Positions 2,246-64,000 of a DNA stretch of 64,000 nucleotides are shown one piece after another. Under the pieces are notes generated by a model. The model saw only the letters and a program-made list of their open reading frames with translations, did no database searches and was not told the origin of the DNA. Numbering within the stretch: position 1 is the stretch's first letter; every line of letters starts with the position of its first letter. A program made the position numbers and the translations under genes. Source of the DNA: Comamonas terrigena NBRC 13299 (GTDB lineage: Bacteria > Pseudomonadota > Gammaproteobacteria > Burkholderiales > Burkholderiaceae_C); contig NZ_AP019749.1 of NCBI RefSeq assembly GCF_006740045.1, forward strand, positions 577,001-641,000. The letters run 5' to 3'.

Positions 2246-4336
2246 ATGCGTGCTCAGAAAATGGGGGCAGGCCACAGCCTGCTGGATGCCCAGCTGGTGA
2301 AGTTGGCGCTGTGGGATGCGGTGCGCAAGCTCTCGCCCCGGACGCAGTGGGCCAACCCGGTGATGTTTGTGGTGTACCTGGGGGCGGTGCTGACCAGTCT
2401 GCTGTGGGGACAGAGCCTGCTGGCACCGGATGGCCAGAGCGATGGATTTGTGCTGGCGATTGCGCTGTGGCTGTGGTTCACCGTGCTGTTTGCCAACTTC
2501 GCCGAGGCCTTGGCCGAGGGCCGCAGCCGCGCCCAGGCGGCCAGCCTGCGTGGCATGAAGCGGGACACCGTGGCCAAGGTACTGCAGCAACCGCAGGTGG
2601 GCAGTGCATGGATTCCGATACGGGCCAGCGAGCTGCGCAAGGGGGTGGTGATCTATGTGGAGGCGGGTGACACCATCGCCCTCGATGGCACGGTGATCGA
2701 TGGCGTGGCGTCGGTGGACGAAAGCGCGATCACCGGCGAGTCGGCCCCCGTGATCCGCGAGGCCGGCGGCGACTTCTCGTCCGTGACCGGCGGCACGCGG
2801 GTGCTGTCGGACTGGCTGGTGGTGGAGGTCACGGTCAATCCTGGCGAGTCGTTTCTGGACCGCATGATCTCCATGGTCGAGTCGGCCAAGCGCCAGAAGA
2901 CGCCGAATGAAATGGCGCTGACGATCCTGCTCGTGGGGCTGACGCTGGTGTTTCTGCTGGTCATTGTCACGTTGTGGCCGTTCTCGGCTTTCGCGGTGGC
3001 GCAGGCCGGCACCGGGTCGGTGGTCGGCATGGCGGTGCTGATTGCGCTGCTGGTCTGCCTGATTCCGACCACGATCGGCGGCCTGCTGTCGGCCATTGGC
3101 GTGGCGGGCATGAGCCGCATGATGCAGGCCAATGTCATCGCCACCTCGGGCAGGGCGGTGGAGGCGGCTGGCGACGTGGATGTGCTGCTGCTGGACAAGA
3201 CCGGCACCATCACGTTGGGCAACCGCCAGGCCAGCGAATTCCTGCCTGCCCCGGGCGTGAGCGCCGCGCAGCTGGCCGAAGCGGCCCAGCTGGCCTCGCT
3301 GGCCGATGAAACCCCGGAAGGCCGCAGCGTGGTGGCCCTGGCCAGGGAGCGCCATGCCCTGCCGGAGCGCCGCAGTGCGGATTTTCCGGGCGTGTTCGTA
3401 CCCTTCACGGCCCAGACGCTCATGAGCGGGGTGGACCTGCAGGGCCCGCAAGGGGAGCGCAGCCTGCGCAAAGGGGCCGCGGATGCCGTGCGCCGGCATG
3501 TCGAGGCGCTGGGCGGCAGCTTTCCCGCTCCGGTGCAGCTGTCGGTGGACAACGTCTCGCGCAAGGGCAGCACGCCGCTGGTGGTGGCCGATGGCGCCAG
3601 GGTGCTGGGCGTGATCGAGCTCAAGGATGTGGTCAAGCCCGGCATGCGCGAGCGCTTTGCCGAGCTGCGCCGCATGGGCATACAGACGGTGATGGTGACC
3701 GGTGACAACCCGCTGACGGCTGCCGCGATTGCCGCCGAAGCCGGGGTGGACGACTACCTGGCCGAAGCCCGACCCGAAGACAAGCTGCAGCTGATCCGCT
3801 CGCACCAGGCGGCAGGCCGGCTGGTGGCCATGACCGGGGACGGCACCAATGACGCACCGGCCCTGGCCCAGGCCGATGTGGCCGTGGCCATGAACAGCGG
3901 CACCCAGGCGGCGAAAGAGGCCGGGAACATGGTGGACCTGGACAGCAACCCGACCAAGCTGATCGAGGTGGTGGAAACCGGCAAACAGATGCTGATGACG
4001 CGGGGGGCGCTGACCACCTTCAGCATTGCCAACGATGTGGCCAAGTACTTCGCCATCATTCCGGCGGCCTTTGTGGGCACCTACCCGCAGCTGGCCTCGC
4101 TCAATGTGATGCAGCTGCACAGCGCGGATTCCGCCATCCTGAGCGCGGTGATCTTCAACGCGCTGATCATCATCGCCCTGGTGCCGCTGGCCTTGCGGGG
4201 GGTGCAGTACCGCGCCGTGGGCGCCGCCATCCTGCTGCGCCGCAACCTGCTGATCTACGGTCTGGGCGGGCTGGTTGTGCCATTTGTCGGCATCAAGCTC
4301 ATCGATCTGTTGCTGACCGCGCTGGGGCTGGTATGA
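2246..4336 (+). CDS. kdpB: KdpB, P-type ATPase subunit of the Kdp pump
   Basis: KdpB hydrolyses ATP to power K+ import and is the P-type ATPase (P1A class) of the complex. It has 696 aa, close to the family length of about 680. The actuator motif TGES is present; its serine is the inhibitory phosphorylation site in the E. coli protein. The phosphorylation motif DKTGTIT has its aspartate at about residue 317. [10 protein letters not shown] and the hinge [12 protein letters not shown] follow, with hydrophobic segments at both ends. It starts 3 bases after kdpC and is followed after 28 bases by kdpD. The catalytic subunit therefore lies last of the three pump genes, a rearranged order. No broken motif is seen. 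Confidence 0.97.
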
Positions 4337-4364
4337 CACGGAAATCTTCGACAATGACTGTACA

Positions 4365-7061
4365 ATGCCATTGACACCCAGCACCAGCTCCGCGCCTGCG
4401 CGCCCGGATCCCGATGTCCTCGTGGCCCAGCTGCAGGCCCAGCAGGCCCAGGCCGGGCGGGGCAAGCTGCGCATCTACTTCGGCTCCAACGCCGGAGTGG
4501 GCAAGACCTACGCCATGCTGGCGGCCGCGCAGCGTGAGCGGCTGGCCGGGCGCCGCGTGCTGGTGGGGCTGGTGGAAACACATGGCCGCGCCGAGACCGA
4601 GCAGCAGCTGCATGACCTGGAGCTGCTGCCGCGGCGCCCGCTCAACTACCTGGGCAAGCAGTTGGCGGAGTTCGATCTGGATGCCGCATTGGCACGCCAC
4701 CCGGATGTGCTGCTGCTGGACGAGTTGGCGCACAGCAATGTTGCCGGCTCGCGCCACCCCAAGCGCTGGCAGGATGTGCAGGAGCTGCTGGAGGCGGGAG
4801 TCGAGGTGTGGACCACGCTCAACGTCCAGCACCTGGAGAGTCTGAACGATGTGGTGAGCGGCATCGTCGGCATCAAGGTCCATGAGACCGTGCCCGACCA
4901 TCTGTTTGACGATGCCGACGAGGTCATCGTGGTCGACATTCCCCCGGAAGAGCTGCTCAAGCGCCTGAAGGCGGGCAAGGTCTACCCGCTGGAGCAGGCC
5001 GAGCGGGCCTCGCGCAACTTCTTCCGGCAGGGCAATCTGCTGGCGCTGCGGGAGCTGGCGTTGCGCCGCACGGCCGACCGGGTCGATGAAGACATGCGCG
5101 ACTACCGGCGCGAACGCGCCATCGGCGATGTCTGGCCTACGCGGGAGCGCCTGCTGGTGGGCGTGGGCGGCCGCGCCGGTGACGATGCCCTGGTGCGCCA
5201 GGTGGCACGCCTGGCACGGCGGCTGGAAGCCGACTGGGTGGTGGTCTATGTGGATGCACCGCAGCGCCAGCACCGCCCCCGGGCGGCGCAGGAGGCCGTG
5301 CTCAAGACCCTGGCGCTGGCCGCGCGCCTGGGGGCGGAAACGGCCACCATTCCGGGAGCCCAGGTGGCGCAGGCCTTGGTGGACTTCGCACGCGAACGCA
5401 ACGCCAGCCATCTGGTGCTGGCCAGGGTGGACCAGCCTTGGAACCGCTGGCTGCCTTGGCGTCCGGCCAGCCTGTCGGAGCAGATCGCCTTGCTGGACCC
5501 CGGTCTGGATGTGCTGCTGCTGTCCGTCAAAAAGGTCAAGCCTGACAGCAGCGTGCGCTTTCCCGTGGTGCGCGAGCAGGCGATTCCCTGGAAGGGCTAT
5601 GGGGGCGTGACACTGGCCTGCCTGGCCGCGACCGCGCTGGCCGAGCTGCTGCTGCAGGTGTTCGACCCGGCCAATGTGGTCATGCTGTTCCTGCTGGTGG
5701 TGGTGCTGTCGGCCGTGCGCTGGGGGCGCGGCCCCGGGGCCTGGGCGGCCCTGTTGTCGGTACTGCTGTTCGACTTCTACTTTGTGCCGCCGCGCAATTC
5801 TTTCAGCGTCAACGACACACAGTACCTGTTCACCTTCTGCCTGATGCTGGGGGTGGCCCTGGTCTGCGGCCAGCTGACGGCGCGATTGCGCCATGAGGCG
5901 CGGGTGGCCGCCGAGCGCGAGCGGCGTGCCGGCGCACTGGCCAGGCTGGCGCGGGATCTGTCGGGTGCACTGACGCAGCAGCAGGTCACGCAGATTGCGC
6001 TGACCACGATTTCCGGCGTCTTTGGGGCACAGACTGGCTTGCTGCTGCCCGATGCCGATGAGCAGTTGCAGCTGGCGCAGGGCAGCGCAGGCGCGATCGA
6101 TGCCAGCGTGGGGCGCTGGAGCATGGAGCATGGCCAGATGGCGGGTCAGGGAACGGACACCCTGGCCGCCGCGCCCGCGCTGTATGTGCCGCTGATGGCC
6201 CCGGTGCGCTCCCGCGGCGTGCTGGTGCTGCAGCTGAGCGCACCGCAGAAGCTGCGGGTGCCCGAAGAGCGCCGTCTGCTCGATGCCTGTGCCAGTCAGA
6301 TTGCACTGGCGCTGGAGCGGGTGCATTTTGTGGACGTGGCGCAGCAGACCCAGATTGCCATGGAAGGCGAGCGCATGCGCAACACCTTGCTCTCCGCCGT
6401 GTCGCACGACCTGCGCACACCGCTGACCGGCATTCTGGGGGCGGCCCAAGCCGCACTGCCCCATGCGCCGCAGGGCCCGGTGCACAGCATGCTGGTGCAG
6501 ATCCGCAACCAGGCACAGGCCCTGCAGCAGCTGGTGGACAACCTGCTGGCCATGGCGCGCCTGCAGCAAGGTGGCGTGCACCTGAAGCGCGAGTGGCTAC
6601 CGGTGGATGAACTGGTGGGCAGCGCCCTGGCGCAGATGCGCGAGCGCCTGGCTGGGCATGTGCTGCACACGGCGCTGCCGACCGGTCTGCCCTTGCTGGA
6701 GCTCGACGCCGTGCTGATGGAGCGCGTGCTGGTCAATCTGCTGGACAACGCCATCAAGTACACCCCCGCAGGTACGGCGATCACCGTGGCGGCGGGTGTG
6801 GAGGGCGGAGACTGTGTGCTCAGCGTGCAGGACGCAGGCCCGGGCCTGCCCGCCCACCTGTCGGCGCAGCAACTGTTCGAGCCCTTTACCCGCGGGCAGT
6901 CGGAGAGCGCTGTGTTTGGCATGGGGCTGGGGCTGGCTTTGGCGTTGCGCATTGTGCAAGCCCATGGCGGCCGTCTGGAGGTGGAAGCGGCGGAGCCCGG
7001 GCCGGGAGCGGTCTTCCGCGTGCGCCTGCCTGTGCCCGAGCAGCCATCCATGGACGATTGA
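4365..7061 (+). CDS. kdpD: KdpD, K+/turgor-responsive sensor histidine kinase
   Basis: KdpD senses K+ limitation or ionic strength and phosphorylates KdpE to switch on the kdp operon. It has 898 aa, the normal length. In order: the N-terminal KdpD domain with Walker A GSNAGVGKT (40-48) and Walker B LLLDELAHSN (about 115-124); a USP-like domain (GVGGRAGDDALVRQ); four membrane segments (about 410-505); a GAF-like linker; the HisKA helix with SAVSHDLRTPL (His about 681); and an ATPase domain with NLLDNAIKYTP, DAGPG and GMGLGLAL. Start ATG 4365 lies 28 bases after kdpB without a clear ribosome site. The last bases overlap a possible TTG start of kdpE, which suggests translational coupling. Confidence 0.96.
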   Translation: MPLTPSTSSAPARPDPDVLVAQLQAQQAQAGRGKLRIYFGSNAGVGKTYAMLAAAQRERLAGRRVLVGLVETHGRAETEQQLHDLELLPRRPLNYLGKQLAEFDLDAALARHPDVLLLDELAHSNVAGSRHPKRWQDVQELLEAGVEVWTTLNVQHLESLNDVVSGIVGIKVHETVPDHLFDDADEVIVVDIPPEELLKRLKAGKVYPLEQAERASRNFFRQGNLLALRELALRRTADRVDEDMRDYRRERAIGDVWPTRERLLVGVGGRAGDDALVRQVARLARRLEADWVVVYVDAPQRQHRPRAAQEAVLKTLALAARLGAETATIPGAQVAQALVDFARERNASHLVLARVDQPWNRWLPWRPASLSEQIALLDPGLDVLLLSVKKVKPDSSVRFPVVREQAIPWKGYGGVTLACLAATALAELLLQVFDPANVVMLFLLVVVLSAVRWGRGPGAWAALLSVLLFDFYFVPPRNSFSVNDTQYLFTFCLMLGVALVCGQLTARLRHEARVAAERERRAGALARLARDLSGALTQQQVTQIALTTISGVFGAQTGLLLPDADEQLQLAQGSAGAIDASVGRWSMEHGQMAGQGTDTLAAAPALYVPLMAPVRSRGVLVLQLSAPQKLRVPEERRLLDACASQIALALERVHFVDVAQQTQIAMEGERMRNTLLSAVSHDLRTPLTGILGAAQAALPHAPQGPVHSMLVQIRNQAQALQQLVDNLLAMARLQQGGVHLKREWLPVDELVGSALAQMRERLAGHVLHTALPTGLPLLELDAVLMERVLVNLLDNAIKYTPAGTAITVAAGVEGGDCVLSVQDAGPGLPAHLSAQQLFEPFTRGQSESAVFGMGLGLALALRIVQAHGGRLEVEAAEPGPGAVFRVRLPVPEQPSMDD

Positions 7062-7096
7062 GCCGACAATCCCGTGCACCACCCGCAAACCCGAAC

Positions 7097-7804
7097 ATGA
7101 CGACCGTCGCTCCCCGCATTCTGCTGATCGAAGACGATGCCAGCATCCGCCGCTTTGTGCGTCTGGCGCTGGAGGACGAAGGCTGGCAGGTCTTCGAAGC
7201 CGAGACCGCCAAGCGCGGCCTGATCGAGGCTGCCAGCCGCCAGCCCGATGCAGTGGTGCTGGACCTGGGGCTGCCCGATGCCGATGGCAAGACCGTGATT
7301 GCCGAGCTGCGCGGCTGGAGTCTGTTGCCGATTCTGGTGCTGTCCGCCCGCGAGCGGGAAGAGGAGAAGGTGGCGGCACTGGATGCCGGTGCGGATGACT
7401 ACCTGACCAAGCCTTTTGGCGTGCCCGAGCTGCTGGCGCGCCTGCGTGCGATGCTGCGGCGCCGCCAGCAGGCGTCGGCCACCGACAAGCCCGGCACCAG
7501 TGCACGCTTTGGCAGCGTGACCGTGGACCTGGCAGCGCACGATGTGGTGCGCGACGGGGTGCCGGTGCACCTGACCCCCATCGAGTTCCGCCTGCTGGCG
7601 GCCCTGGTTGCCGGCCATGGCAAAGTGCTGACGCACCGGCAGTTGCTGCTGCAGGTCTGGGGAGCGGAATACCTGGACAGGCCCCACTATCTGCGCGTGC
7701 ACATGGCCAATCTGCGGCAGAAGCTGGAGCAGGACCCTGCGCAGCCCGCTCACCTGGTGACCGAGCTGCAAGTCGGGTATCGGCTGGTCGGTCTGGCGGC
7801 TTGA
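7097..7804 (+). CDS. kdpE: KdpE, OmpR-type response regulator for kdp
   Basis: KdpE is the DNA-binding partner of KdpD and activates kdp transcription when phosphorylated. It has 235 aa from ATG 7097. The receiver domain shows the acidic pair EDD, phospho-acceptor Asp56 in VVLDLGLPD and the LTKPF lysine. The winged-helix output domain ends RVHMANLRQKLEQDP. A TTG at 7058 would add 13 residues and overlap the kdpD stop. I prefer the ATG because family members start only a few residues before the ILLIEDD strand, but neither start has a strong ribosome site. It closes the kdp operon. Confidence 0.94.
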   Translation: MTTVAPRILLIEDDASIRRFVRLALEDEGWQVFEAETAKRGLIEAASRQPDAVVLDLGLPDADGKTVIAELRGWSLLPILVLSAREREEEKVAALDAGADDYLTKPFGVPELLARLRAMLRRRQQASATDKPGTSARFGSVTVDLAAHDVVRDGVPVHLTPIEFRLLAALVAGHGKVLTHRQLLLQVWGAEYLDRPHYLRVHMANLRQKLEQDPAQPAHLVTELQVGYRLVGLAA

Positions 7805-7818
7805 CCGGTCAGTGCCCG

Positions 7819-7824
7819 TATAAT
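7819..7824 (+). promoter_or_regulatory. -10 box of the ahcY promoter
   Basis: A perfect TATAAT lies 8 bases before the SAH riboswitch, so transcription would start at about 7831, exactly at the aptamer's 5' edge. No good -35 lies 16-18 bases upstream. A TTGACC at 7801 is only 12 bases away, too close for a standard sigma-70 promoter. Confidence 0.6.
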
Positions 7825-7831
7825 CCCAGCT

Positions 7832-7927
7832 CATCCGAGGAGCGTTGCAGCGTTCCCCAGTCCCGCCACCCGCGGGGCGTCAGCGGGGCGTGAGGCTCGG
7901 ATTTCATCCCGCAACGACGCTCACCCA
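7832..7927 (+). promoter_or_regulatory. SAH riboswitch in the ahcY leader
   Basis: This matches the S-adenosylhomocysteine riboswitch class, known upstream of ahcY in beta- and gammaproteobacteria, which turns the gene on when SAH accumulates. Readable elements are ATCCGAG at 7833-7839, which pairs perfectly with CTCGGAT at 7896-7902; GAGCGTTGC at 7840-7848; and GCAACGACGCTC at 7911-7922, which complements it (GAGCGT with ACGCTC, or CGTTGC with GCAACG). Conserved CCGAGG, GAGGCTCGG and CAACGACGCTCACC blocks are in the expected order. About 75 bases remain between the aptamer and the ahcY start, including the ribosome site GGAG at 7994-7997. Confidence 0.9.
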
Positions 7928-8003
7928 CGCTTTCTGTGCGGTGAGACGGTATTTCCCCTTCTGCTTCAGAACGTGGTTTTTCATTCAATTTTTGGAGAAA
8001 ACC

Positions 8004-9434
8004 ATGAACGCTGCTGTTCGCTTCAACCCTGCCGATTCGGCCATCACCGACATTTCCCTGGCCGCCTGGGGCCGCAAGGAAATCAAGATTGCCGAAACCG
8101 AGATGCCCGGCCTGATGGCCGTGCGCGAGGAATTCGCTGCAGCCCAGCCGCTGAAGGGTGCGCGCATCACCGGTTCGCTGCACATGACGATCCAGACGGC
8201 CGTGCTGATCGAGACCTTGACCGCTCTGGGCGCACAGGTGCGCTGGGCGTCGTGCAACATCTTCTCGACCCAGGACCATGCAGCGGCGGCCATCGCTGAA
8301 ACCGGCGTGCCGGTGTTCGCCATCAAGGGCGAATCGCTGAAGGACTACTGGGATTACACCCACAGCATCTTCGAGTTCGGCGCTGCCGGCACCGACAACG
8401 AAGGCCCCAACATGATCCTGGACGATGGCGGCGATGCCACCATGCTGATGCACCTGGGCAAGAAGGCCGAGAAGGACCTGTCCGTGCTGGCCAACCCCGG
8501 TTCGGAAGAAGAGAAGATCGTCTTCGCCGCCATCAAGGCCAAACTGGCCGTGGATCCCACTTGGTACAGCCGCAAGTCGGCCCAGATCCTGGGTGTGACC
8601 GAAGAAACCACCACCGGCGTGCACCGCCTGAACGAAATGTCGGCCAACGGCAGCCTGCTGTTCCGTGCCATCAACGTGAACGACTCGGTCACCAAGTCCA
8701 AGTTCGACAACCTGTACGGCTGCCGCGAGTCGCTGGTGGACGGTATCAAGCGCGCCACCGACGTGATGATCGCCGGCAAGGTGGCCGTGGTGGCCGGCTA
8801 CGGCGACGTGGGCAAGGGCTGCGCCCAGGCCCTGTCCGCGCTGCGCGCCCAGGTGTGGGTGACCGAGATCGACCCGATCAACGCCCTGCAGGCCTCGATG
8901 GAAGGCTACAAGGTCGTGACCATGGAATATGCCGCCGACAAGTGCGACATCTTCGTGACCACCACCGGCAACAAGGACATCATCCGCCACGAGCACATGC
9001 TGGCGATGAAGGATGAGGCCATCGTCTGCAACATCGGTCACTTCGACAACGAAATCGACGTCGCGTCGATCGAGAAGTACGAGTGGGAAGAAATCAAGCC
9101 CCAGGTCGACCACATCACCTTCCCGGACGGCAAGAAGATCATCCTGCTGGCCAAGGGCCGTCTGGTGAACCTGGGCTGCGCCACCGGCCACCCCAGCTTC
9201 GTGATGTCCAACTCCTTCGCCAACCAGACCCTGGCCCAGATCGAGCTGTTCACCCGCCCCGACGCCTACGAAGTCGGCAAGGTCTATGTGCTGCCCAAGG
9301 TGCTGGACGAGAAGGTGGCACGCCTGCACCTGAAGAAGGTCGGTGCCCAGCTGACCGAGCTGACCGAAGCCCAGGCCGCCTACATCGGCGTGAAGAAGGA
9401 AGGCCCTTACAAGCCTGAAACCTACCGTTATTGA
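8004..9434 (+). CDS. ahcY: Adenosylhomocysteinase (SAH hydrolase)
   Basis: AhcY cleaves S-adenosylhomocysteine to adenosine and homocysteine in the cytoplasm, relieving product inhibition of methyltransferases and feeding the methionine cycle. It has 476 aa, the usual bacterial length. The NAD-binding loop [16 protein letters not shown], the substrate-site stretch [18 protein letters not shown] and the C-terminal signature [14 protein letters not shown] ... YKPETYRY are all intact. ATG 8004 sits just after GGAG and the riboswitch leader; a longer upstream frame would run through the riboswitch and is rejected. tlyA and metF lie downstream on the same strand, separated from it by a chemoreceptor gene. 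Confidence 0.98.
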
Positions 9435-9444
9435 TGGGCGGAGG

Positions 9445-9469
9445 CCGTGGCAGCCGTTGGCTGCCACGG
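9445..9469 (+). terminator. Strong hairpin after ahcY
   Basis: An 11-bp perfect stem begins 10 bases after the ahcY stop: CCGTGGCAGCC pairs with GGCTGCCACGG around a 3-base loop. No T-run follows, so it may end transcription weakly or protect the 3' end of the ahcY message. Confidence 0.5.
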
Positions 9470-9589
9470 TGCATGACCTGCGGGCTTGACTTCAGCTTGC
9501 CATGTGAATGCCGAAATCATGGGTGCAAGGCCCCGTACACAGGAGGCCGATTCATTTTCGGATCGCATACAACAAGGAGAAGCCAGGTC

Positions 9590-11572
9590 ATGAGAGGTTT
9601 GTTTCAGCCCGCTGTGGCATTGATGTCGCGTTTGCGACTGGGTCCCAAATTCCTGTTGGCGGGCATTCCGCTGCTGCTGATGCTGGGGCTGGTGGGTGCC
9701 ATGGCGGTGCAGCGCTACCAGGCGCGGGTGCAGGCACTGGAGGCCAAGCGTGCCGCGGTGGCGCTGATGGCCGATCTGGTGGAGTGGAACCAGGTGCTGA
9801 TCGAAAGCCGCCGGGTGGCCATCACCGGCCAGGCCGGCGATGCGGCGCTGATGCAGTCCTTCCAGCGCCAGGCGGCGGTGGTGGACAAAACCCTGGCCAA
9901 GATCGAAGCCCGCGTCGCGGCGCAACAGCGCTATTACGACATGCGCAAGGAAACCGAAGGCCTGCAGCAAGGCTGGAAGGAGTTGCAAGGCAAGATTGCC
10001 GCGCTGCCGGCCGATGCCGACTTCGCGCAAAAAGCCTTTGCCGCCCATGCGCCCGAATACGCGCGCCTTTACGCCTTCATGCGCGATCTGGGCAACCGTT
10101 CCGGTCTGGCGCAGGATCCGGATGCCGATATCTTCTACCTGGGCTACCCGCTGGCCAACCACACGCCGTCCACGGCCGGCATTGCCGTGCGCATTGCTGC
10201 CTACGCGCTGCTCAATGTGAGCCGTGGCGTGGTGGATACCAAGGACAAGGTGTTCTACGAAGTGACCGAGGCGCGCCTGAACGACACGTTCTCGGGCGTG
10301 GAAACCCAGTTGTCGCAGTCCATGCAGGCCAATGCCGCGGTGCAGCAGGCGCTGGGCGCGCGCTTTGACGCGCTCAAGGCCACGTCCAAGGAGCTGCTGG
10401 GCTATGTGCGCAAGCACTTCACGCTGGTGGACCAGGTGGCGGTGTCGCAGCAGGAGGTGCAGACTGCTGCCCAGCCGACTATCGATGCGGCCTGGGCACT
10501 GGTGTCGCAAAACGGCGCAGTGCTGGACCAGCTGCTGGCCGAGCGCGGCGCCGAGGCGGCCACCCAGCGCAACCTGCTGGTGCTGCTGCTGGCGCTGGGC
10601 ATTGGCGCTTCGGTCTATCTGTATGTGGGCGTGTACCTGAGCATGGCGGCCAGTCTGGCCCAGGCTTCGCAGGCGGCCAAGGCGATTGCGGCCGGCGATC
10701 TGGGCACGGTGCAGGCACCGGTGTCCAAGGATGAATTTGCACGCCTGCTGGAAGACCTGCGCAGCGCCGACCGGGCGCTGGCCCAGGTGATTGCCGGGGT
10801 CAAGGAATCGTCGGAATCGATTGCCACGGCGACCAGCGAGATTGCCTCCGGCACACAGTCGCTGAGCAGCCGCACCGAGCTGACCGCCAGCAGCCTGCAG
10901 CAGACGGCAGGCTCCATGGCCCAGCTGACGGATGCGCTGTCGCACAGCCGGGGTTCGGCCGATTCGGCGCGCCAGCTGTCGGTGTCGGCCGGGGATGTGG
11001 CGCGGCGCGGGGGCACGGTGGTGCAGCAGGTGGTGCAGACCATGGATGCCATCAACCAGAGCAGCCGCAAGATTGCCGACATCATCGGGGTGATCGACGG
11101 TATCGCCTTCCAGACCAATATCCTGGCGTTGAACGCGGCGGTGGAAGCCGCCCGCGCCGGTGAGCAGGGCCGGGGCTTTGCCGTGGTGGCCAGCGAGGTG
11201 CGTGCCCTGGCCGGGCGCAGTGCCGAGGCGGCCAAGCAGATCAAGGACCTGATCGGCAGCAGTGTGGGCAAGGTGGACGAAGGCGCCCGCCTGGTCAGCG
11301 AAGCCGGGGCCACGATGCACGAGATCGTGGATTCGGTGGTGCGGGTGGACGCAGTGATCGGGGAGATCTCGGTTGCTGCGGGTGAGCAGAGCCAGGGCAT
11401 TGCGGAAATCAATACCGCCGTGGGCCAGCTGGACGACATGACACAGCAAAATGCGGCCCTGGTCGAACAAAGTGCGGCAGCTGCCGAAAGCCTGCGTGAG
11501 CAGGCCCGGCTTCTGGCCGAGGTGGTGGGCAACTTCCGCATCCATGGCGGTGGGGAGCGCCGCCTGACATAA
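9590..11572 (+). CDS. Methyl-accepting chemotaxis protein (transmembrane chemoreceptor)
   Basis: This inner-membrane chemoreceptor passes ligand binding to the CheA-CheW array. It has 660 aa from ATG 9590, chosen because AAGGAGA lies at a good distance upstream (9574-9580). The first membrane segment is at about 20-40 and a periplasmic four-helix-type sensor of about 300 residues follows. The second membrane segment (LLVLLLALGIGASVYLYVGV) leads to a HAMP linker (QAAKAIAAGDLGTV) and a cytoplasmic signalling domain with the conserved tip FQTNILALNAAVEAARAGEQ. There is no C-terminal CheR/CheB-tethering pentapeptide (it ends GGGERRLT). The ligand cannot be told from sequence. No che genes are nearby, so it is an orphan receptor inserted between ahcY and tlyA-metF. 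Confidence 0.93.
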   Translation: MRGLFQPAVALMSRLRLGPKFLLAGIPLLLMLGLVGAMAVQRYQARVQALEAKRAAVALMADLVEWNQVLIESRRVAITGQAGDAALMQSFQRQAAVVDKTLAKIEARVAAQQRYYDMRKETEGLQQGWKELQGKIAALPADADFAQKAFAAHAPEYARLYAFMRDLGNRSGLAQDPDADIFYLGYPLANHTPSTAGIAVRIAAYALLNVSRGVVDTKDKVFYEVTEARLNDTFSGVETQLSQSMQANAAVQQALGARFDALKATSKELLGYVRKHFTLVDQVAVSQQEVQTAAQPTIDAAWALVSQNGAVLDQLLAERGAEAATQRNLLVLLLALGIGASVYLYVGVYLSMAASLAQASQAAKAIAAGDLGTVQAPVSKDEFARLLEDLRSADRALAQVIAGVKESSESIATATSEIASGTQSLSSRTELTASSLQQTAGSMAQLTDALSHSRGSADSARQLSVSAGDVARRGGTVVQQVVQTMDAINQSSRKIADIIGVIDGIAFQTNILALNAAVEAARAGEQGRGFAVVASEVRALAGRSAEAAKQIKDLIGSSVGKVDEGARLVSEAGATMHEIVDSVVRVDAVIGEISVAAGEQSQGIAEINTAVGQLDDMTQQNAALVEQSAAAAESLREQARLLAEVVGNFRIHGGGERRLT

Positions 11573-53881: not shown

Positions 53882-55480
53882 TCAGGTGGGCGGGTTTTGG
53901 GGGGCCGGACGGCTGGCTGGGGGCTCAGCCGAGGGCAGCGTCTGCATGTCCGGTGTGGCGGCCGCCGGAACCGGTGTCGCCATCGAGGCCGGTGCAGGCG
54001 CCGGGGCTGGCGTGGGCGAGGGCGGCGGTGTGGAGCTTTCCAGCGCACCGTTCAGGTACACCTCGGCACGTGAAGGCGGCACATGGTTGTCGGTGGGGAC
54101 AGAGGGCGCTTGGGCCAGTGCCTGTACCAGGCGCGGGGTGATGATGAACATCAGCTCGGTCTGGTCCGTCTGGAACTCGGTGCTGCGGGCCAGTGCCCCC
54201 AGCACGGGAATCTCGCCCAGTCCCGGAAAGCGCTTGATGGCTTCGGTGATGTTGTTCTTGATCAGCCCTGCAATGACCAGGCTCTGACCGTCGTTGAGCT
54301 GCACCGTGGTATCGGCCCGGCGCACCGACAGCGAGGGGATGATGGAGGTGACTCCATTGATGGCGGTGAAGGGGGACCCGGTCTGGGACAGGTCGGACAC
54401 TTCGGACACCAGCTTCAGGTTGACGCGTGCATTGCCCAGCACCGTGGGGGTGAACTTGACGCCGATGCCGAACTCTTTTTCCTCCAGCGTCATCACCGGC
54501 ACACCGTTGGTATTGGTCTGCGCCACCGGGATGAAGATCTTCCCGCCGGACAGGAAGCTGGCCTGCTGGCCGCTGATGGCCATGATGTTGGGCTCGGCCA
54601 GGATGCGCACCAGGCCATCGTCCTTCTGTCCATCGATGTTCAGCGCGCCTTTGCCGACGCGCAGGGCGCTCAGCAGGCCGCCGCCGCCGCTCAGGAAGTT
54701 CGACACGACGGAGTAGGAGTTCATGCCACCGCTGGTGATGCGCTGGCCGCTGAAGCTGGAGCCCAGCTTGTCGAGCAGGGTCTTGCTGACTTCGGCGATC
54801 TTGACTTCCAGCATCACCTGGTGGGGCGAGGTGGTGCGCAGCAGGTTGACGATCTTCTTGCTGTCGCTGTAGGCCCCTGCCAGGGTGACGATGTCGTCCA
54901 GGCGCAGCGGATTGCTGATCTCGCCGCTGAGCACCAGGGCGTTGTCGGCGCCCTGGATGCGGATGCCGCGTTCTTCAGGCATCAGTTCAGCGAGCTTGGC
55001 TTGCAGCGGTCCCGGGTCGATGGTAACCACCACATCCTTGATGAAGCAGGTGCCCTGGGCGTTCTGCAGGATGACGTTCATGGCACCCGACTTGCGGCCG
55101 CGGAAGAACAGGTCGCGTGGGCTGAGCAGCTGCACTTCGATGTCGGCAATGCCGTTCTGTGCCTGTGCCTGGCCGCCCATGGCAGTGGCGGGGGCTGCCT
55201 GGCCGGCTGCGGGTGTCTGGCCGCTCACCAGGATGCGCGCCATCGGTGAGCTCAGGGGAATGACGACGGATTTGCCCAGCGTGACGGTGGCGGGTTCCTC
55301 CATGCGGATGGCGGTGCATTGCCGGGTGGGCGAGGCGGCACGTGGTGCCGCAGACGCTGCGGCGGGTGCCGCCATGGCCATGGCAGGGGATGCGCCAGCG
55401 GGCTGGGCATCGGCGGCCAGCGCGGATGATGCGCTGACCAGCAGCAGGTTCACTGCTGCACAGAGATGGTGGTATTTCAC
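53882..55480 (-). CDS. rcpA: RcpA/CpaC, outer-membrane secretin of the Tad pilus
   Basis: RcpA is the secretin channel through which the Flp pilus leaves the cell. The 532-aa protein is read from GTG 55480, chosen because GAGAGAGG lies 6 bases upstream and a signal peptide follows at once (LLLVSASSALA). Periplasmic N-domains follow (EEPATVTLGKSVVIPL, NPLRLDDIVTLAGAYSDSKKIVNLL), then the secretin domain (VMLEVKIAEVSKTLL, VRRADTTVQLNDGQSLVIAGL, LGEIPVLGALARSTEF, ELMFIITPRLVQ). The last 55 residues are an unusual Pro/Ala-rich tail. Confidence 0.94.
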   Translation of the reverse strand: MKYHHLCAAVNLLLVSASSALAADAQPAGASPAMAMAAPAAASAAPRAASPTRQCTAIRMEEPATVTLGKSVVIPLSSPMARILVSGQTPAAGQAAPATAMGGQAQAQNGIADIEVQLLSPRDLFFRGRKSGAMNVILQNAQGTCFIKDVVVTIDPGPLQAKLAELMPEERGIRIQGADNALVLSGEISNPLRLDDIVTLAGAYSDSKKIVNLLRTTSPHQVMLEVKIAEVSKTLLDKLGSSFSGQRITSGGMNSYSVVSNFLSGGGGLLSALRVGKGALNIDGQKDDGLVRILAEPNIMAISGQQASFLSGGKIFIPVAQTNTNGVPVMTLEEKEFGIGVKFTPTVLGNARVNLKLVSEVSDLSQTGSPFTAINGVTSIIPSLSVRRADTTVQLNDGQSLVIAGLIKNNITEAIKRFPGLGEIPVLGALARSTEFQTDQTELMFIITPRLVQALAQAPSVPTDNHVPPSRAEVYLNGALESSTPPPSPTPAPAPAPASMATPVPAAATPDMQTLPSAEPPASRPAPQNPPT

Positions 55481-55520
55481 GGCCGGCCTCTCTCTCTTGG
55501 ATATGTGGGTAGCGTGGATG

Positions 55521-56369
55521 TCAGAAGCAGTTGAGGGTGCTGGTGCCGCCCTGGATGACTTCGACACAGGTGGCTGCCGATGGCAGTGGTGCGGGCCGGG
55601 CGCGGGGCGCGGCGGGCTTGGCCACAGCCACCTTGACGGGGGCGCTGGGCGGTGTGGGTTCGGCCGTGCCGAACAGCTGGTGCTTGGTGATGCCCGTGGT
55701 GCTGACGGGATCCTTGTCAATCTGGTTGCGCAGCACCAGGGACAGATTGCCTACGCTGCGTGCCAGATCCAGTTTCTCGGCCTCTTCCGGGCTGAGTTCG
55801 AGCGTGACGGCGCTGACCACCTTGGGCTTGGTTTCGTCGCGATCGGCTTCCTGCGCCACGGCCAGGACCAGCACGTTCTCCAGCACGGTCTTGCTGATCT
55901 GGCGCGCATCGTCCGATTTGCCACCTTGCTCTGTTTGGGCGTTGACCACCACGTCCACGTGGTTGCCTGGCAGGGCAAAGCCCGCCACGCCCACCACATC
56001 GTTCACCCGCACGGTCATGGCCCGCTTGCCCGGGGCGATGACGGCGGCCAGGCCGCCCCGGGTTCCCACGGGGGCCAGCTTGCCTTCCAGTACGGCCTCC
56101 CCGCGCAGCACGCCCACCTTGACGACGCGGTCCTGCAACTGCTGGATGTCATGGAAGGCGCCGTTCGGGATGGATCCCCGGGGCCAATCCACCGTGCTGA
56201 GCATGGTGGGAAGAATCTTGCTGCCCAGAGGGATGTCGCTGGCGGCGACGATCACCTTGTCGGCATCGATGCTGCCGCGCTGGGCAACCCAGTTGGCGGC
56301 GTAGACCGCAGCGGCCAGGCTGGCAAGTGCAGCGAGGACGAACAGACCCAGGGCCTTGAGGTTTTTCAT
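55521..56369 (-). CDS. rcpC: RcpC/CpaB, SAF-domain periplasmic protein of the Tad pilus
   Basis: This 282-aa protein has an N-terminal membrane anchor (LGLFVLAALASLAAAVYAANWV), an SAF domain (VIVAASDIPLGSKILPTMLSTVDWPRGSIP) and a CpaB C-terminal beta domain (RAMTVRVNDVVGVAGFALPGNHVDVVV). It works next to the secretin in the periplasm. The C-terminus carries two cysteines (ATCVEVIQGG, LNCF). It starts 29 bases after the prepilin peptidase gene and ends 40 bases before the secretin start. Confidence 0.93.
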   Translation of the reverse strand: MKNLKALGLFVLAALASLAAAVYAANWVAQRGSIDADKVIVAASDIPLGSKILPTMLSTVDWPRGSIPNGAFHDIQQLQDRVVKVGVLRGEAVLEGKLAPVGTRGGLAAVIAPGKRAMTVRVNDVVGVAGFALPGNHVDVVVNAQTEQGGKSDDARQISKTVLENVLVLAVAQEADRDETKPKVVSAVTLELSPEEAEKLDLARSVGNLSLVLRNQIDKDPVSTTGITKHQLFGTAEPTPPSAPVKVAVAKPAAPRARPAPLPSAATCVEVIQGGTSTLNCF

Positions 56370-56398
56370 GGGGACCTCCCGCTATACCGTAGTGATGG

Positions 56399-56989
56399 TT
56401 AAACCCAGGTGAATTGCCGGGCGACGAGAAACGATGCCGTGCCCAGCGCGATGCTGACCCCGTAGGGCAGCGTGCCCACGGATGGCGCTGAACTGGTGCG
56501 TGCATCGGGACGGATCCCCGCGGCGACGGAGATGAACAGCAGCTGTGTGGTCTGCCGTGTGTTGTGCAGCAGCTTCCTGGCGGCCCTGTGCCACAGCGCG
56601 TAGACCAGGGCAGCGATGCCGCCAGCGATGAAGACGAAGACCACGGCATGCCAGGCGCCGTCGGGACCCAGGAATGCGCCCGCCATGGCCATGAGCTTGA
56701 CGTCCCCTGCACCCATGGCGCGCAGCAGGTACAGCGGCAGCATGAGCACCAGACCCAGGCACATGCCGCCCAACGCCCAGAAGAATCCGCCGCCGTGGTG
56801 GGAGGAGGAGGTCAGGCTGTACAGCAGGGCGATGGCCGCACCACCGAAGGTCAGGGCATTGGGGATGCGGCGGCTGCGCAGATCGCAGATGGCGGCGGCC
56901 AGCAAAAGCAGCAGCAGCAGCAGCGAGCGTGGCTCGGTGAGCAGTGCGCCCACCAGCTCGGCTCCGGCGCGAAGTTCTGAAAAGTCCAT
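56399..56989 (-). CDS. tadV: TadV/CpaA, prepilin peptidase of the Tad pilus (A24 family)
   Basis: This inner-membrane aspartyl peptidase cuts Flp and TadE-type leaders. It has 196 aa with about six hydrophobic segments and both catalytic aspartates: Asp36 in CDLRSRRIPN and Asp96 in GAGDVKLM. It lacks the N-terminal methylation domain of PilD, as TadV proteins do. It is the first gene of the operon, with a leader of about 120 bases. Confidence 0.94.
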   Translation of the reverse strand: MDFSELRAGAELVGALLTEPRSLLLLLLLLAAAICDLRSRRIPNALTFGGAAIALLYSLTSSSHHGGGFFWALGGMCLGLVLMLPLYLLRAMGAGDVKLMAMAGAFLGPDGAWHAVVFVFIAGGIAALVYALWHRAARKLLHNTRQTTQLLFISVAAGIRPDARTSSAPSVGTLPYGVSIALGTASFLVARQFTWV

Positions 56990-59901: not shown

Positions 59902-60885
59902 TTACTTGGCCTTCTTGTAGGCGTCCAGAATGGCCTGCCCGTCCGCACCGGCCTTTTCGGTCCACTCCTTGACCACGGTCTCGCCGACCTTGGCCAGATC
60001 GGCCTTCAGCTGGGCGGAGCCGGTTTCGATGCTCATGCCACCGGCCTTGAGCGCGGCGATGGACTTGGCATCCACTTCCTTGGATTCCTTCCAGCCGCGG
60101 GCTTCCGCGTCGGCTGCGGCCTTCAGCACGGCGTCCTGCGTGGCTTTGTCCAGCGCGGCAAAAGCCTTCTTGCTCACGGTCACGGCATTCTTGGGGATCC
60201 AGGCCTGCACGTTGTAGTAGTACTTCAGGTTTTCAAACAGCTTGTTGTCGGCACCGGTGGCGCTGGAGGTGATCAGGCCGTCCACCACACCAGTGGCCAG
60301 GGCTTGCGACAGCTCGGCTTCCTGCACGGTCACAGGCTGTGCGCCGATCAGCTCGCCGATGCGGGCGGTGGTGGGCGAGTACACGCGCCACTTCATGCCC
60401 TTGAGGTCTGCCACCGAGTTGACGGGCTTCTTGGTGTAGATGCCCTGGGGCGGCCAGGCCACCGAATACAGCAGCACCTGGCCTTGCTTGTCCAGCAGCT
60501 TTTGCAGCGCAGGCTTTTGCGCCTGGTAGAGCTTGAAGGCTTCGTCGTAGCTGCTCACCAGGAAGGGCAGGCCGTCTGCGCCGAAGATCTGCGATTCGTT
60601 CTGGAAGCTCACCAGAAAGAACTCGCCCATCTGCGCATTGCCGGTTTGCACGGCGCGCTTGATCTCGGGCATCTTGAACAGCGATGCGCCGAAGTGCGGC
60701 GTGATCTTGAGCTTGCCGCCGGTGGCAGCGTCCACCTCTTTCACAAACAGCTCGTTGTTCTTGGAGTGGAAGTTGCCGGGGCCGTAAGCGGTGGCGAAAT
60801 CCCACTTGGTTTGGGCAGCGGCCGCACCGGCAAAACCGATGCTGGCGACCAAGGTGGCGGTAGCGCAAAAGATGCGACGCTTCAT
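59902..60885 (-). CDS. dctP: TRAP transporter periplasmic binding protein (DctP)
   Basis: This 327-aa protein has signal peptide MKRRIFCATATLVASIGFAGAAAAQ. The mature receptor shows family landmarks GPGNFHSKNNELFVKEVDAATGGKLKI, LKGMKWRVYSPTTARIGELIGAQPVTVQEAELSQALATGVVDGLI and the ligand-binding arginine in the MKWRVYS stretch. Bordetella pertussis DctP6/DctP7 form a known pyroglutamate-binding DctP group. Because pxp genes lie divergently nearby I infer 5-oxoproline as the ligand, unproven. ATG 60885 follows AAGGAG. A sigma-54-like promoter lies 46 bases upstream. Confidence 0.93.
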   Translation of the reverse strand: MKRRIFCATATLVASIGFAGAAAAQTKWDFATAYGPGNFHSKNNELFVKEVDAATGGKLKITPHFGASLFKMPEIKRAVQTGNAQMGEFFLVSFQNESQIFGADGLPFLVSSYDEAFKLYQAQKPALQKLLDKQGQVLLYSVAWPPQGIYTKKPVNSVADLKGMKWRVYSPTTARIGELIGAQPVTVQEAELSQALATGVVDGLITSSATGADNKLFENLKYYYNVQAWIPKNAVTVSKKAFAALDKATQDAVLKAAADAEARGWKESKEVDAKSIAALKAGGMSIETGSAQLKADLAKVGETVVKEWTEKAGADGQAILDAYKKAK

Positions 60886-60930
60886 GTTGACTCCTTGAGG
60901 AAGGGCTGAAAGATGCAGGTGGTCACGTAA

Positions 60931-60947
60931 GGCAAGTTACGTGCCAA
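60931..60947 (-). promoter_or_regulatory. Sigma-54-type promoter of dctPQM
   Basis: The minus strand reads TTGGCACGTAACTTGCC, matching the -24/-12 consensus TGGCACG-N4-TTGC without a mismatch up to the last base, with the required ten bases between GG and GC. Transcription would begin near 60920, giving a leader of about 35 bases with AAGGAG. Confidence 0.7.
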
Positions 60948-61033
60948 AAGTAGCATTGGTTTCAACAATCATCCATAAGGGATTTCAACGATGATGCAGT
61001 TGCGTAGGTGTTGTAGCTTCTTATTGTTGAGAG

Positions 61034-61045
61034 TCTGAATTCAGA
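61034..61045. promoter_or_regulatory. Palindrome TCTGAATTCAGA, candidate activator or repressor site
   Basis: A perfect 12-base palindrome about 115-125 bases upstream of the predicted dctP start, the distance at which enhancer-binding proteins bind. It is flanked by ATTGTTGA and ATTGTTCAAC, close to the motif found before pxpA. Confidence 0.45.
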
Positions 61046-61102
61046 TTGTTCAACTAAATTGGTGCATACCCCTGTGGCGGTGCACCTTCCTGGGGATCGG
61101 AA

Positions 61103-61774
61103 TCACGGCAGCTGGCGGGCATAGACGGCCAGCACCATGCGTTCGGATTGCACCAGATAGGTCTCCAATTCCTGGGCAGCCTCCTTGGTCTGCCCATCCA
61201 TCAACATCTGCAGCAGGCGCGCGTTATGGTCGACATAGGGGGCATGAAGGTATTCGGGATCGTCCAGCATGCCGAAGGCCAGCCGCAGTTCGGCGGCCAG
61301 GTGGGCAAACATGGAGGACAGGCGTGCACTGTCGCTGAGCGCCACGATGCCCGCATGGAAAGCCATATTGGCCGAGCCCACGGTGCGCCAGTCCTTCACC
61401 TGGCGGGCGGCCAGGGCGTCGTCCACGGCCTGGCGCATGCGTTTGTGCGCAGGGTGCAGCGGCCATGCCTTCTCCAGCGACTGGCATTCGATCAGCCGGC
61501 GCACCCGGTAGATGTCAATGATGTCGGCAATGGAGGGGGTGGCCACGGAGACCCCGCGGTTGGGTTCATGCCGCAGCAGGCCTTCCTTGATCAGCGTGCG
61601 GAAGACCTCCCGCAAGGTGTTGCGCGAGATGTCCAGTTGCTGGCTCAGCGCGGCTTCCGACAGGCGCTGCCCGGCGCGCAACTCGCCGTGGATCAGCTGT
61701 TGGCGGATGCGCTCGGCCACGGCATCGCTCAGGCTCGTGGATTCGTTGCTGGAAGGGTCGCGTGGGCTTGGCAT
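61103..61774 (-). CDS. GntR-family (FCD/FadR group) transcriptional regulator
   Basis: This 223-aa protein has an N-terminal winged helix-turn-helix (DAVAERIRQQLIHGELRAGQRLSEAALSQQLDISRNTLREVFRTL) and an all-helical FCD effector domain with metal/acid ligand histidines (ANMAFHAGIVAL, YVDHNARLLQ). FCD regulators respond to organic acids and usually repress catabolic genes. It lies between dctPQM (same strand, downstream) and pxpA (divergent, 71 bases), so it is the obvious regulator of both, probably responding to 5-oxoproline or a relative. Confidence 0.92.
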   Translation of the reverse strand: MPSPRDPSSNESTSLSDAVAERIRQQLIHGELRAGQRLSEAALSQQLDISRNTLREVFRTLIKEGLLRHEPNRGVSVATPSIADIIDIYRVRRLIECQSLEKAWPLHPAHKRMRQAVDDALAARQVKDWRTVGSANMAFHAGIVALSDSARLSSMFAHLAAELRLAFGMLDDPEYLHAPYVDHNARLLQMLMDGQTKEAAQELETYLVQSERMVLAVYARQLP

Positions 61775-61781
61775 GGCAGAT

Positions 61782-61797
61782 TGGTAAGGAATTTGCT
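61782..61797 (+). promoter_or_regulatory. Sigma-54-like promoter of pxpA
   Basis: TGGTAAGGAATTTGCT keeps the essential GG and GC exactly ten bases apart with TTGCT at -12 perfect; the -24 half departs at two positions from TGGCACG. Start of transcription would be near 61808, inside the adjoining palindrome. It is weaker than the dctP element. Confidence 0.45.
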
Positions 61798-61802
61798 AGA
61801 TA

Positions 61803-61813
61803 TTGTTGAACAA
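61803..61813. promoter_or_regulatory. Operator-like palindrome TTGTTGAACAA between gntR and pxpA
   Basis: Perfect 5-base arms around one G, the size of FCD-type GntR operators. It overlaps the predicted pxpA start of transcription and lies 29 bases upstream of the gntR ATG, so binding could repress both directions. Partial copies occur upstream of dctP (60961-60969, 61024-61031, 61045-61054). Confidence 0.55.
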
Positions 61814-61845
61814 AGCGCTGGCATGTGGCGCAAGGAGCATACAAG

Positions 61846-62598
61846 ATGGATTTGAACAGCGATCTGGGCGAAAGCTTTGGTGCCTGGAGCATGGGCGACG
61901 ATACCGCCATGCTCGATATCGTCAGCAGCGCTAATGTGGCATGCGGCTTCCATGCCGGTGATGCCGCGGGCATTCTCGCCACCCTGAAGGCGGCCAAGGC
62001 GCGCAATGTGGTCGTGGGCGCCCATGTGGCCTACCGCGATCTGGCCGGTTTCGGCCGCCGCAACATGGATGTGGCCAGCAGCGATCTGGTGGCCGACGTG
62101 ATCTACCAGATCGGCGCGCTGCAGGGCCTGGCCCAGGCGGCGGGCACCACAGTGCGGTATGTGAAGCCGCATGGCGCGCTCTACAACACCATTGCCCAGG
62201 ACCGGCGCCAGGCCACCGACGTGATCAACGCCATCAAGGCGATCGATCCCTCGCTGGTGCTGATGGCGCTGGCGGGAGCACCGCTGATCGGCTGGGCGCG
62301 CGACGCCGGCCTGACCGTGGTGGCCGAAGCCTTTGCCGACCGTGCCTACACCCCCCAGGGGGCCCTGGTTTCGCGCCGCGAAGCCGGTGCCGTGCTGCAC
62401 GATGAAACCCTGATCGCCCAGCGCATGCTGACCCTGGTGCGCGAAGGCGTGATCGAGGCCGTGGATGGCTCCATGGTGCGCGTGGAGGCCGATTCGATTT
62501 GCGTGCATGGCGACAGCCCCGGGGCGGTGTCCATTGCCCGTGCGCTGCGCCAGCGCTTTGAAGCAGAAGGCGTGCAGATCGCCTCGTTCGTGGCATGA
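61846..62598 (+). CDS. pxpA: 5-oxoprolinase subunit A (LamB/YcsF family)
   Basis: PxpA with PxpB and PxpC forms the ATP-dependent prokaryotic 5-oxoprolinase, which opens 5-oxoproline to glutamate. The 250-aa product starts [19 protein letters not shown]. It has [37 protein letters not shown] and [17 protein letters not shown], all intact family motifs. ATG 61846 is chosen over a GTG at 61825 because AAGGAG lies 8 bases before it. Its stop overlaps the start of the next gene (ATGA). Confidence 0.96.
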
Positions 62599-64000
62599 GT
62601 GGCATGCGTTTTCTGCCGGTCCACCGCCAGGCCCTCATGGTGGAGCTGGACGATCTGCAGCAGACCCTGGTGCTGCTCCAGTCCCTGCAGGCCGAGCCGA
62701 TTGACGGCGTGCAGGAGCTGGTGCCTGCTGCGCGCACCATCCTGGTGTACTTTGCTCCGCACCGGGTAACGGCGGCGCAGCTGGTGCAGGCAATTGCGGG
62801 CCGCAATCTGCAGGGCAGCGTGCAGCGCTCGGATGTGCTGGTGGAAATTCCCGTGCGCTATGACGGCGAAGACCTGGCCGATGTGGCGCAGATGCTGGGC
62901 ATCAGCGCGCACGAGGTGGTGCAGCGCCACACCGGCAGCGAATGGTCGGTGGCGTTCACCGGCTTTGCACCGGGCTTTGCCTATCTGTCAGGGGGCGACC
63001 CCATTTTCAACGTGGCGCGCCGTACCACCCCGCGCACCAAGGTGCCGGCGGGCGCGGTGGCGCTGGCCGGTACGTTCAGCGCGGTCTACCCTCAGGCCAG
63101 CCCGGGCGGCTGGCAGATCATCGGCGTGACGGATGCCGCCATGTGGGATCTGGCGCGTGACCTCCCCGCGCTGCTGCAGCCGGGCTACCGCGTGCGGTTT
63201 GTCGATGCATCCACCGCCAGCGCCGGGGCAGACCCGCGCCTGGCGGATGCAGCACCCGTCCAGGCTGCGGCGGCGGTGCCCCCCGCAGCCATGGGGGACA
63301 CCGGCCAGGCGCTGTGGGTGCGCGCCACCGGGTTGCTGACCGTGTTCCAGGACTGTGGCCGCCATGGGCAGGCGGGCCAGGGGGTTTCGGCTTCCGGCGC
63401 CATGGACCAGGCGGCTTTCAAGAGCGCCAACCGCCTGGTTGGCAATGCCAGCCACCTGCCGGTGCTGGAGACCGTGGGCGGCGGCCTGGTGCTGCAGAGC
63501 GTGGGCGAGAACGTGGTGGCCGTGACCGGCGCCGACGCGCCCCTCACTATCACCACCGCAGCCGGCCGCCGCTGGAATGCGCCGCGGTACGCGGCCATTG
63601 CGCTGGCCGATGGCGACAGCCTGGGCCTGGGGCAGCCCACGACCGGTGCCCGCTGTTATGTGGCGGTGCGCGGCGGCTACCGGGTGACCCCGGTGCTGGG
63701 CAGCGCATCCACCGATACCTTGGCCCAGGTGGGCCCGCCCGCCCTGCACAGCGGTCAGCTGCTGCCTGTGGAAGCGGCTTGGCATGCCGTGGTGGGCGAT
63801 GCGGCCCTGGCACCAGACCTGCTGCCGGCCCCTGGCCAGGAGGTGGTGCTGGATGTGGAGCTGGGACCGCGCACCGACTGGTTCACGCCCGAGGCCGTGG
63901 CCCTGCTGGCCCGCCAGCGCTGGGAGGTCACGCCCCAGTCCAACCGGGTGGGCCTGCGCCTGGCCGGTGACGAGGCCTTGGCGCGTGCCATCACCAGCGA
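62595..64000 (+). CDS. Fused 5-oxoprolinase subunits B and C (3' end cut by window)
   Basis: One uninterrupted frame from ATG 62595 to the window edge (468 codons) encodes both remaining 5-oxoprolinase subunits. Residues 1 to about 215 are PxpB (carboxyltransferase C/D type): [37 protein letters not shown] and [14 protein letters not shown] linker of about 25 Ala/Pro-rich residues follows. PxpC then starts at about 241: [38 protein letters not shown] and [13 protein letters not shown]. There is no stop or restart between them, so it is a true fusion, as in urea-amidolyase-like proteins. It overlaps pxpA by 4 bases. Confidence 0.93.

Follow-up and report, generated by a model that had tools for sequence, protein, structure and literature searches.

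The pyroglutamate locus analysed here is probably controlled by two sigma-54 promoters that flank the gene of a PxpR-type repressor, with activation by NtrC and sigma-54 gated by PxpR, a reading in which we place reasonable though far from complete confidence and which is drawn from comparative sequence analysis. The window, a stretch of 64,000 nucleotides (C1:577001-641000), comes from a genome of 4.67 Mb in a single contig. On its minus strand lie dctM (TRAP large permease, PF06808, 58010-59326) and dctQ (TRAP small permease, PF04290, 59298-59870), both with uncertain starts, dctP (TRAP solute-binding protein, PF03480, 59902-60885) and gntR (GntR/FCD regulator, PF00392 and PF07729, 61103-61774), followed on the plus strand by pxpA (5-oxoprolinase subunit, NF003814, 61846-62598) and a fused pxpB-pxpC (PF02682 and PF02626), which begins at 62595 and continues past the window end at 64000. 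The pxpA start was set at the ATG at 61846, downstream of an AAGGAG at 61832, and the score above the NF003814 cut-off was obtained for the pxpA frame counted from 61825. The nearest named relatives of dctP are from Comamonas, and the best PDB matches of its product over 300 residues are 2pfz (E 1e-110) and 2pfy (E 2e-82), which we take to be the entries of the pyroglutamate-binding DctP receptors of Bordetella pertussis. Such receptors of B. pertussis are covered by a review whose relevant passages contain nothing on sigma-54 control there (PMC5812351), and the window DctP resembles them through these matches and would be a probable member of the pyroglutamate-binding DctP subfamily.

Scored against the sigma-54 consensus TGGCACG-N4-TTGCW, the -24/-12 box of dctP, TGGCACGTAACTTGCC at 60931-60946 on the minus strand, agrees at 11 of 12 positions, which confirms the near-consensus element that the first-pass annotation had noted there (TTGGCACGTAACTTGCC, 60947-60931). 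This score was reached by 5 of 5000 dinucleotide shuffles of the 217-nt stretch upstream of dctP. On the dctP side no sigma-70-like site was found at the threshold of the tool. The predicted transcription start lies at about 60920 and the ATG at 60885, leaving a leader of about 35 nt. For a comparison with relatives, 41 named loci from a scan for DctP relatives were considered, of which L156 and L165 were dropped (start unusable), as were L147, L150 and L159, where no operator was found by any of four stepwise looser patterns; the 36 remaining loci and the window make up 37 operator-bearing loci. Of these, 18 carry the dctP box, the window among them, and always at the same position. Sense-strand matches of at least 10/12 with GG and GC number 19 over all offsets, 18 of them, each in a different locus, at 109-115 nt past the start of the operator, and the antisense strand of the same 37 loci yields a single match of at least 10/12. 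These 18 boxes comprise 13 different sequences in which GGCA and TTGC are invariant, an invariance partly enforced by the score threshold, while all four spacer columns are variable. The carriers include records of Comamonas, Acidovorax, Paenacidovorax, Lampropedia, Corticibacter, Pseudothauera and Hydrogenophaga. In 19 of the 37 loci the box is absent although operator and gene are kept, and L137 has a decayed GG-N10-GC form (7/12) at the same place. Earlier promoter alignments of congeners, kept out of the 37-locus counts because at least one congener is in both sets, gave the same picture.

On the other side of gntR, the plus-strand element that had been proposed before pxpA is present as TGGTAAGGAATTTGCT at 61782-61797; it shares the GG-N10-GC spacing of the dctP box and agrees with the consensus at 10 of 12 positions, a score attained by 73 of 5000 dinucleotide shuffles of the 71-nt pxpA stretch (about 1.5%). 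With a predicted transcription start at about 61808 and the ATG at 61846 the leader is 38 nt, and both computed leaders agree with the earlier estimate of about 35-40 bases. The comparison set for this box consists of 23 loci in which pxpA and gntR diverge and are no more than 400 nt apart. A pxpA box of at least 10/12 occurs in 12 of them, window included, and the two boxes are concordant (both or neither) in 20. Only the dctP box is present in L158, L162 and L166; in L162 the gap measures 351 nt and the start of pxpA is uncertain. None of the 23 has a pxpA box without a dctP box. The elements recur in some of the relatives, for dctP and pxpA in the fractions just given, and are absent from the remaining loci.

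The arrangement of box and operator at pxpA bears on the rival view that sigma-54 acts at dctP only, the stretch before pxpA being leader or promoter DNA of gntR and pxpA being transcribed from an ordinary promoter under PxpR. That view, which we regard as unlikely, draws on the closeness of the pxpA box to the start codon of gntR (8-23 nt), on its lower score and chance level, on the lack of an NtrC box near pxpA and on the three loci with a solitary dctP box out of 15 dctP-box loci with an adjacent pxpA. In seven loci the pxpA box starts 20-22 nt before the operator, and 33 nt before it in L143. A second main register, however, is found in L154, L157, L161 and L163, where a box of 11-12/12 starts 11 nt before the operator and its -12 TTGC coincides with the opening four bases of the operator TTGCTCAACAA; here the box still faces pxpA, which would not be expected if a gntR leader were being conserved. 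Moreover, no sigma-70-like site reached the threshold of the tool at 61730-61870 on either strand. A third arrangement, an 11/12 box 55-57 nt after the operator, was seen in 5 of 58 further loci scanned (L046, L048, L049, L050 and L057), the gntR of which is more distant and the divergent gene of which need not be pxpA.

It is very improbable that ordinary intergenic DNA produced the boxes by chance. Exact TGGCACGNNNNTTGC does occur 12 times in the whole genome, both strands counted, and since open frames of 90 aa or more enclose 11 of these matches, most are not promoters of that kind. Together with the shuffle frequency at pxpA this speaks for chance; the fixed position, the free spacer bases and the recurrence at both genes in several genera speak against it. 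A composite box-operator pattern, searched for in 399 genomes of the order, matched 11 genomes at up to one mismatch and 1 for the reversed control, and is not counted as evidence because none of the 11 loci hold relatives of the window proteins (six queried, E 1e-5, within 3 kb).

The GntR/FCD protein encoded between the two boxes is best read as PxpR, a probable pyroglutamate-sensing repressor. Its GntR and FCD domains, the adjacency of its gene to pxpA and an operator motif on both sides of the gene support the substrate-specific GntR repressor postulated by the first-pass annotation. PxpR-pxpTABC of C. glutamicum likewise has a GntR-type regulator beside pxp genes for pyroglutamate catabolism, and the parts of that study used here give the PxpR operator as agattgttcaacaatct with the core TTGTTCAACAA, report that reporter output rose 6.5-fold when this operator was changed or deleted and describe binding of pyroglutamate by PxpR (PMC13274462). 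The same core forms the operator motif of the window, and the likeness of the two systems is one of operator and gene context (PMC13274462). In the window the core TTGTTSAACAA is exact at 61803-61813 on the plus strand (TTGTTGAACAA), where it lies over the predicted pxpA start as had been stated, and carries one change at 61046-61056 on the minus strand (TAGTTGAACAA). This second PxpR-type operator, overlooked in the first reading, is located at about -126 to -136 relative to the predicted dctP start and is aligned in relatives, its distance to the sigma-54 box being 109-115 nt. Genome-wide there are four copies of the exact palindrome, one before pxpA, two in a second pyroglutamate-type locus and one inside a reading frame at 3.39 Mb. 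Sites at up to one change from the palindrome are common (48 in the genome, 28 with the reversed control), so the case for the dctP operator depends on its recurrence in relatives. The 12-base palindrome described earlier about 120 bases upstream of dctP is real (TCTGAATTCAGA at 61034-61045) but not conserved, being found among seven aligned promoters in that of the window alone, and was rejected as a GntR operator. The repressor site upstream of dctP would instead be the TTGTTSAACAA-type operator, situated in a putative enhancer and not at the promoter.

Sigma-54 promoters depend on an activator, and the genome contains one rpoN gene and seven PF00158 matches over the cut-off, four of them strong, at 229-238 bits, and three weak, at 26-31 bits; since all 14 control genomes also have PF00158 matches over the cut-off, the weak ones mean little. 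The four strong enhancer-binding proteins are NtrC, which scores over both its NCBIfam cut-offs and is accompanied by a reading frame with histidine-kinase domains, as NtrB would have, two proteins over the NorR cut-off and one orphan. This orphan (L033 1090-2463, minus strand) scores below every NCBIfam cut-off listed, contains GAFTGA and has a seemingly degenerate receiver domain. Upstream of dctP, two NtrC-like boxes are present on the minus strand, TGCACCAATTTAGTTGA at 61050-61066 (10/12), which overlaps the dctP operator by 7 bases, and the weaker TGCACCGCCACAGGGGT at 61068-61084 (9/12). Shuffling the local 63 nt 5000 times yielded a score of at least 10 in 50 cases. In nine other loci the distal box begins 40-43 nt upstream of the operator, compared with 28 nt in the window, so that the positional match of TGCACCGCCACAGGGGT is imperfect. 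Across the 37 loci, NtrC-like boxes of at least 10/12 at the dctP operator are found in 9 of the 18 with a sigma-54 box, window included, and in 0 of the 19 without, while ten scrambled motifs of the same form gave 0-2 of 18 and 0-1 of 19. At a threshold of 9 the figures are 11 of 18 vs 2 of 19, which leaves seven sigma-54-box loci without an NtrC-like box of at least 9/12, C. testosteroni ATCC 11996 included.

A motif check within the clade covered 15 amt loci of 8 genomes, scanned with a close form of the NtrC motif scored at dctP. Five of them, among which is the amt locus of the window genome itself (L174), have an NtrC box (at least 11/13) 80-92 nt upstream of an 11/12 sigma-54 box. The dctP promoter, with its imperfect NtrC-like boxes, would resemble this geometry of glnA/glnK-amtB type promoters, in which the NtrC box lies upstream of the sigma-54 box, although we know of no promoter of that type with a repressor operator inside the enhancer. 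The bare NtrC palindrome was discarded as an indicator, with 1282 sites genome-wide at up to one mismatch vs 232 for the reversed control. There are 12 exact palindromes, and the bare palindrome says little because no sigma-54 box scoring 10/12 or better lies within 600 nt of the sites inspected, L099, L100 and L103.

NtrC, put forward earlier as one candidate, is the likeliest activator because it is one of the four strong enhancer-binding proteins and because NtrC-like boxes lie upstream of dctP; we infer the dependence itself, and near pxpA no convincing NtrC box was found, the best (9/12) lying inside gntR. It is conceivable, if rather doubtful, that the sigma-54 promoters and PxpR are real and that a different enhancer-binding protein activates them, a NorR-like protein or the L033 orphan, possibly through the conserved 11-mer GTTGAAATCCC at 60979-60989 on the minus strand. 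Three further strong enhancer-binding proteins are indeed encoded, the NtrC boxes of the window are imperfect and absent from seven of the 18 sigma-54-box loci, and where both occur GTTGAAATCCC precedes the sigma-54 box by about 43 nt. However, the NtrC-like boxes do track the sigma-54 box, NorR responds to nitric oxide, and GTTGAAATCCC is exact in 18 of the 37 loci irrespective of the box (11 of 18 with it, missing in seven, and 7 of 19 without), for which reason it is not favoured as a site for a sigma-54 activator. The element, defined by alignment and genome search, occurs once in the 4.67-Mb genome, is invariant in both promoter alignments (7 and 11 promoters) and, in the 13 loci for which both are listed, keeps a distance of 66-67 nt to the start of the operator. 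Its first half resembles half an operator, which makes a weak additional PxpR site possible and leaves the conserved CCC unaccounted for; an assignment as an IHF site was dropped after comparison by eye with the consensus.

The co-occurrence of the boxes has to be read against the kinship of the loci. On a quick DctP tree the dctP box needs at least 8 changes, and with kinship disregarded the association with the dctP box has a Fisher p of 0.0016 for NtrC-like boxes at threshold 9 and of 0.0003 for pxpA boxes. Because the well-supported branches of the tree hold only 2 independent pairs, shared descent may account for some of the association; it is suggestive, hinting at correlated evolution and falling short of a proof independent of kinship.

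The boxes, the operators, their spacing, their recurrence in relatives and the presence of RpoN and NtrC are observed, and from these we infer the occupancy of the sites, the ligand, NtrC as activator, mutual exclusion and the mode of pxpA activation. In the preferred model, activation by NtrC and sigma-54 under the gate of PxpR, the gntR product would be a PxpR-type pyroglutamate sensor encoded between the promoters of dctPQM and pxpA-pxpBC. Under nitrogen shortage, NtrC-P bound upstream of dctP (about -130 to -165) would drive sigma-54 RNA polymerase. As long as pyroglutamate is absent, PxpR would hold both sides off by two routes: at pxpA it would block the transcription start from a site at about -5 to +6, and at dctP, bound at -126 to -136, it would overlap the promoter-near NtrC box and displace the activator. 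Pyroglutamate would then release PxpR from both sites. Weighing against the model are the absence of the dctP box from 19 of the 37 loci, the imperfect NtrC-like boxes of the window and the seven sigma-54-box loci in which none reaches 9/12. Activation of pxpA is the weakest step, since there is no NtrC box near it; for want of a convincing one, pxpA would need another activator or a distant enhancer, perhaps the same enhancer some 740 bp away across gntR. A more tentative version, which we hold to be possible but not likely, makes a single NtrC enhancer between gntR and dctP serve both promoters, so that PxpR inside the enhancer would be an anti-activator for both, besides covering the pxpA start, and GTTGAAATCCC would be a further part of the DNA complex. 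What the repressor controls would then be a shared enhancer, not just a promoter.

A repressor site inside an enhancer is probably a less common mode of repression, and it is this placement, inside the enhancer of the activator, that the favoured model of PxpR-gated NtrC activation would imply at dctP. HutC is also a GntR-family protein, and hutU differs from the locus described here in pathway and operator. Pseudomonas hutU is the closest precedent, a sigma-54-dependent amino-acid catabolic operon on which a local repressor and NtrC both act; as presented in the consulted part of that work, HutC, NtrC and CbrB act there, HutC and NtrC share binding sequences with steric hindrance, and no arrangement with a sigma-54 promoter on either side of the repressor gene is described (PMC8871633). 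The C. glutamicum locus, by the sections of the 2026 study considered, differs from the window in having a predicted -10 region at pxpT, PxpT as transporter and pxp genes that lie outside the nitrogen starvation stimulon, and to the knowledge of its authors the regulation of bacterial pyroglutamate metabolism had previously been unstudied (PMC13274462). Unlike C. glutamicum, the window has TRAP import, sigma-54 boxes and NtrC-like boxes. A word search of the main text on the Burkholderia cenocepacia NtrC regulon turned up no mention of LamB, of an oxoprolinase or of a TRAP gene, which speaks against NtrC control (PMC5491218). Hence a repressor and NtrC on one operon (hutU) and a PxpR-type repressor (C. 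glutamicum) are known already, and their combination, control by sigma-54/NtrC and a GntR-type protein at pyroglutamate genes, is absent from the literature searched, which left most subscription papers outside. The findings suggest that sigma-54 has coupled a repressor of this type to nitrogen control in some Burkholderiales. The locus appears to be a two-input switch with clear and testable sites, on only if nitrogen is short and pyroglutamate is present, and the relatives with and without the sigma-54 layer offer a natural series for the gain or loss of nitrogen control.

The second pyroglutamate-type locus of the same genome (L200, G000 C1:2538000-2556000, 3123-11517) comprises genes for DUF969, DUF979, pyroglutamyl peptidase, pxpA, pxpB-pxpC, biotin carboxylase and a TctC-type receptor, its pxpA being 92% and its pxpB-pxpC 77.5% identical to those of the window. 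Exact PxpR-type operators precede the DUF969 gene and the TctC gene, and an 11/12 sigma-54 box lies before the TctC gene between two PxpR-type operators (4237-4252, minus strand). Its nearest relatives, L203-L213, have no box at the TctC position, L211 and L212 showing a 10/12 match elsewhere, at -377; without a counterpart in these loci, the L200 box was not counted as support for sigma-54 control. In the more distant loci L215, L217, L219 and L220 a box of 10-11/12 is found 88 nt after an exact operator. The pxpB-pxpC of the window continues into L201, and in both loci a biotin carboxylase with a biotinyl domain follows pxpBC (L201 2222-3970, L200 4846-6582). We know of no biotin requirement of 5-oxoprolinase, and the neighbouring biotin carboxylase might point to another lactam as substrate or to a biotin-dependent variant of the reaction. 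Elsewhere in the window, at 53882-56989, minus-strand frames encode, to judge from their translations, what are presumably secretin-like, CpaB-like and prepilin peptidase-like proteins of a Tad pilus.
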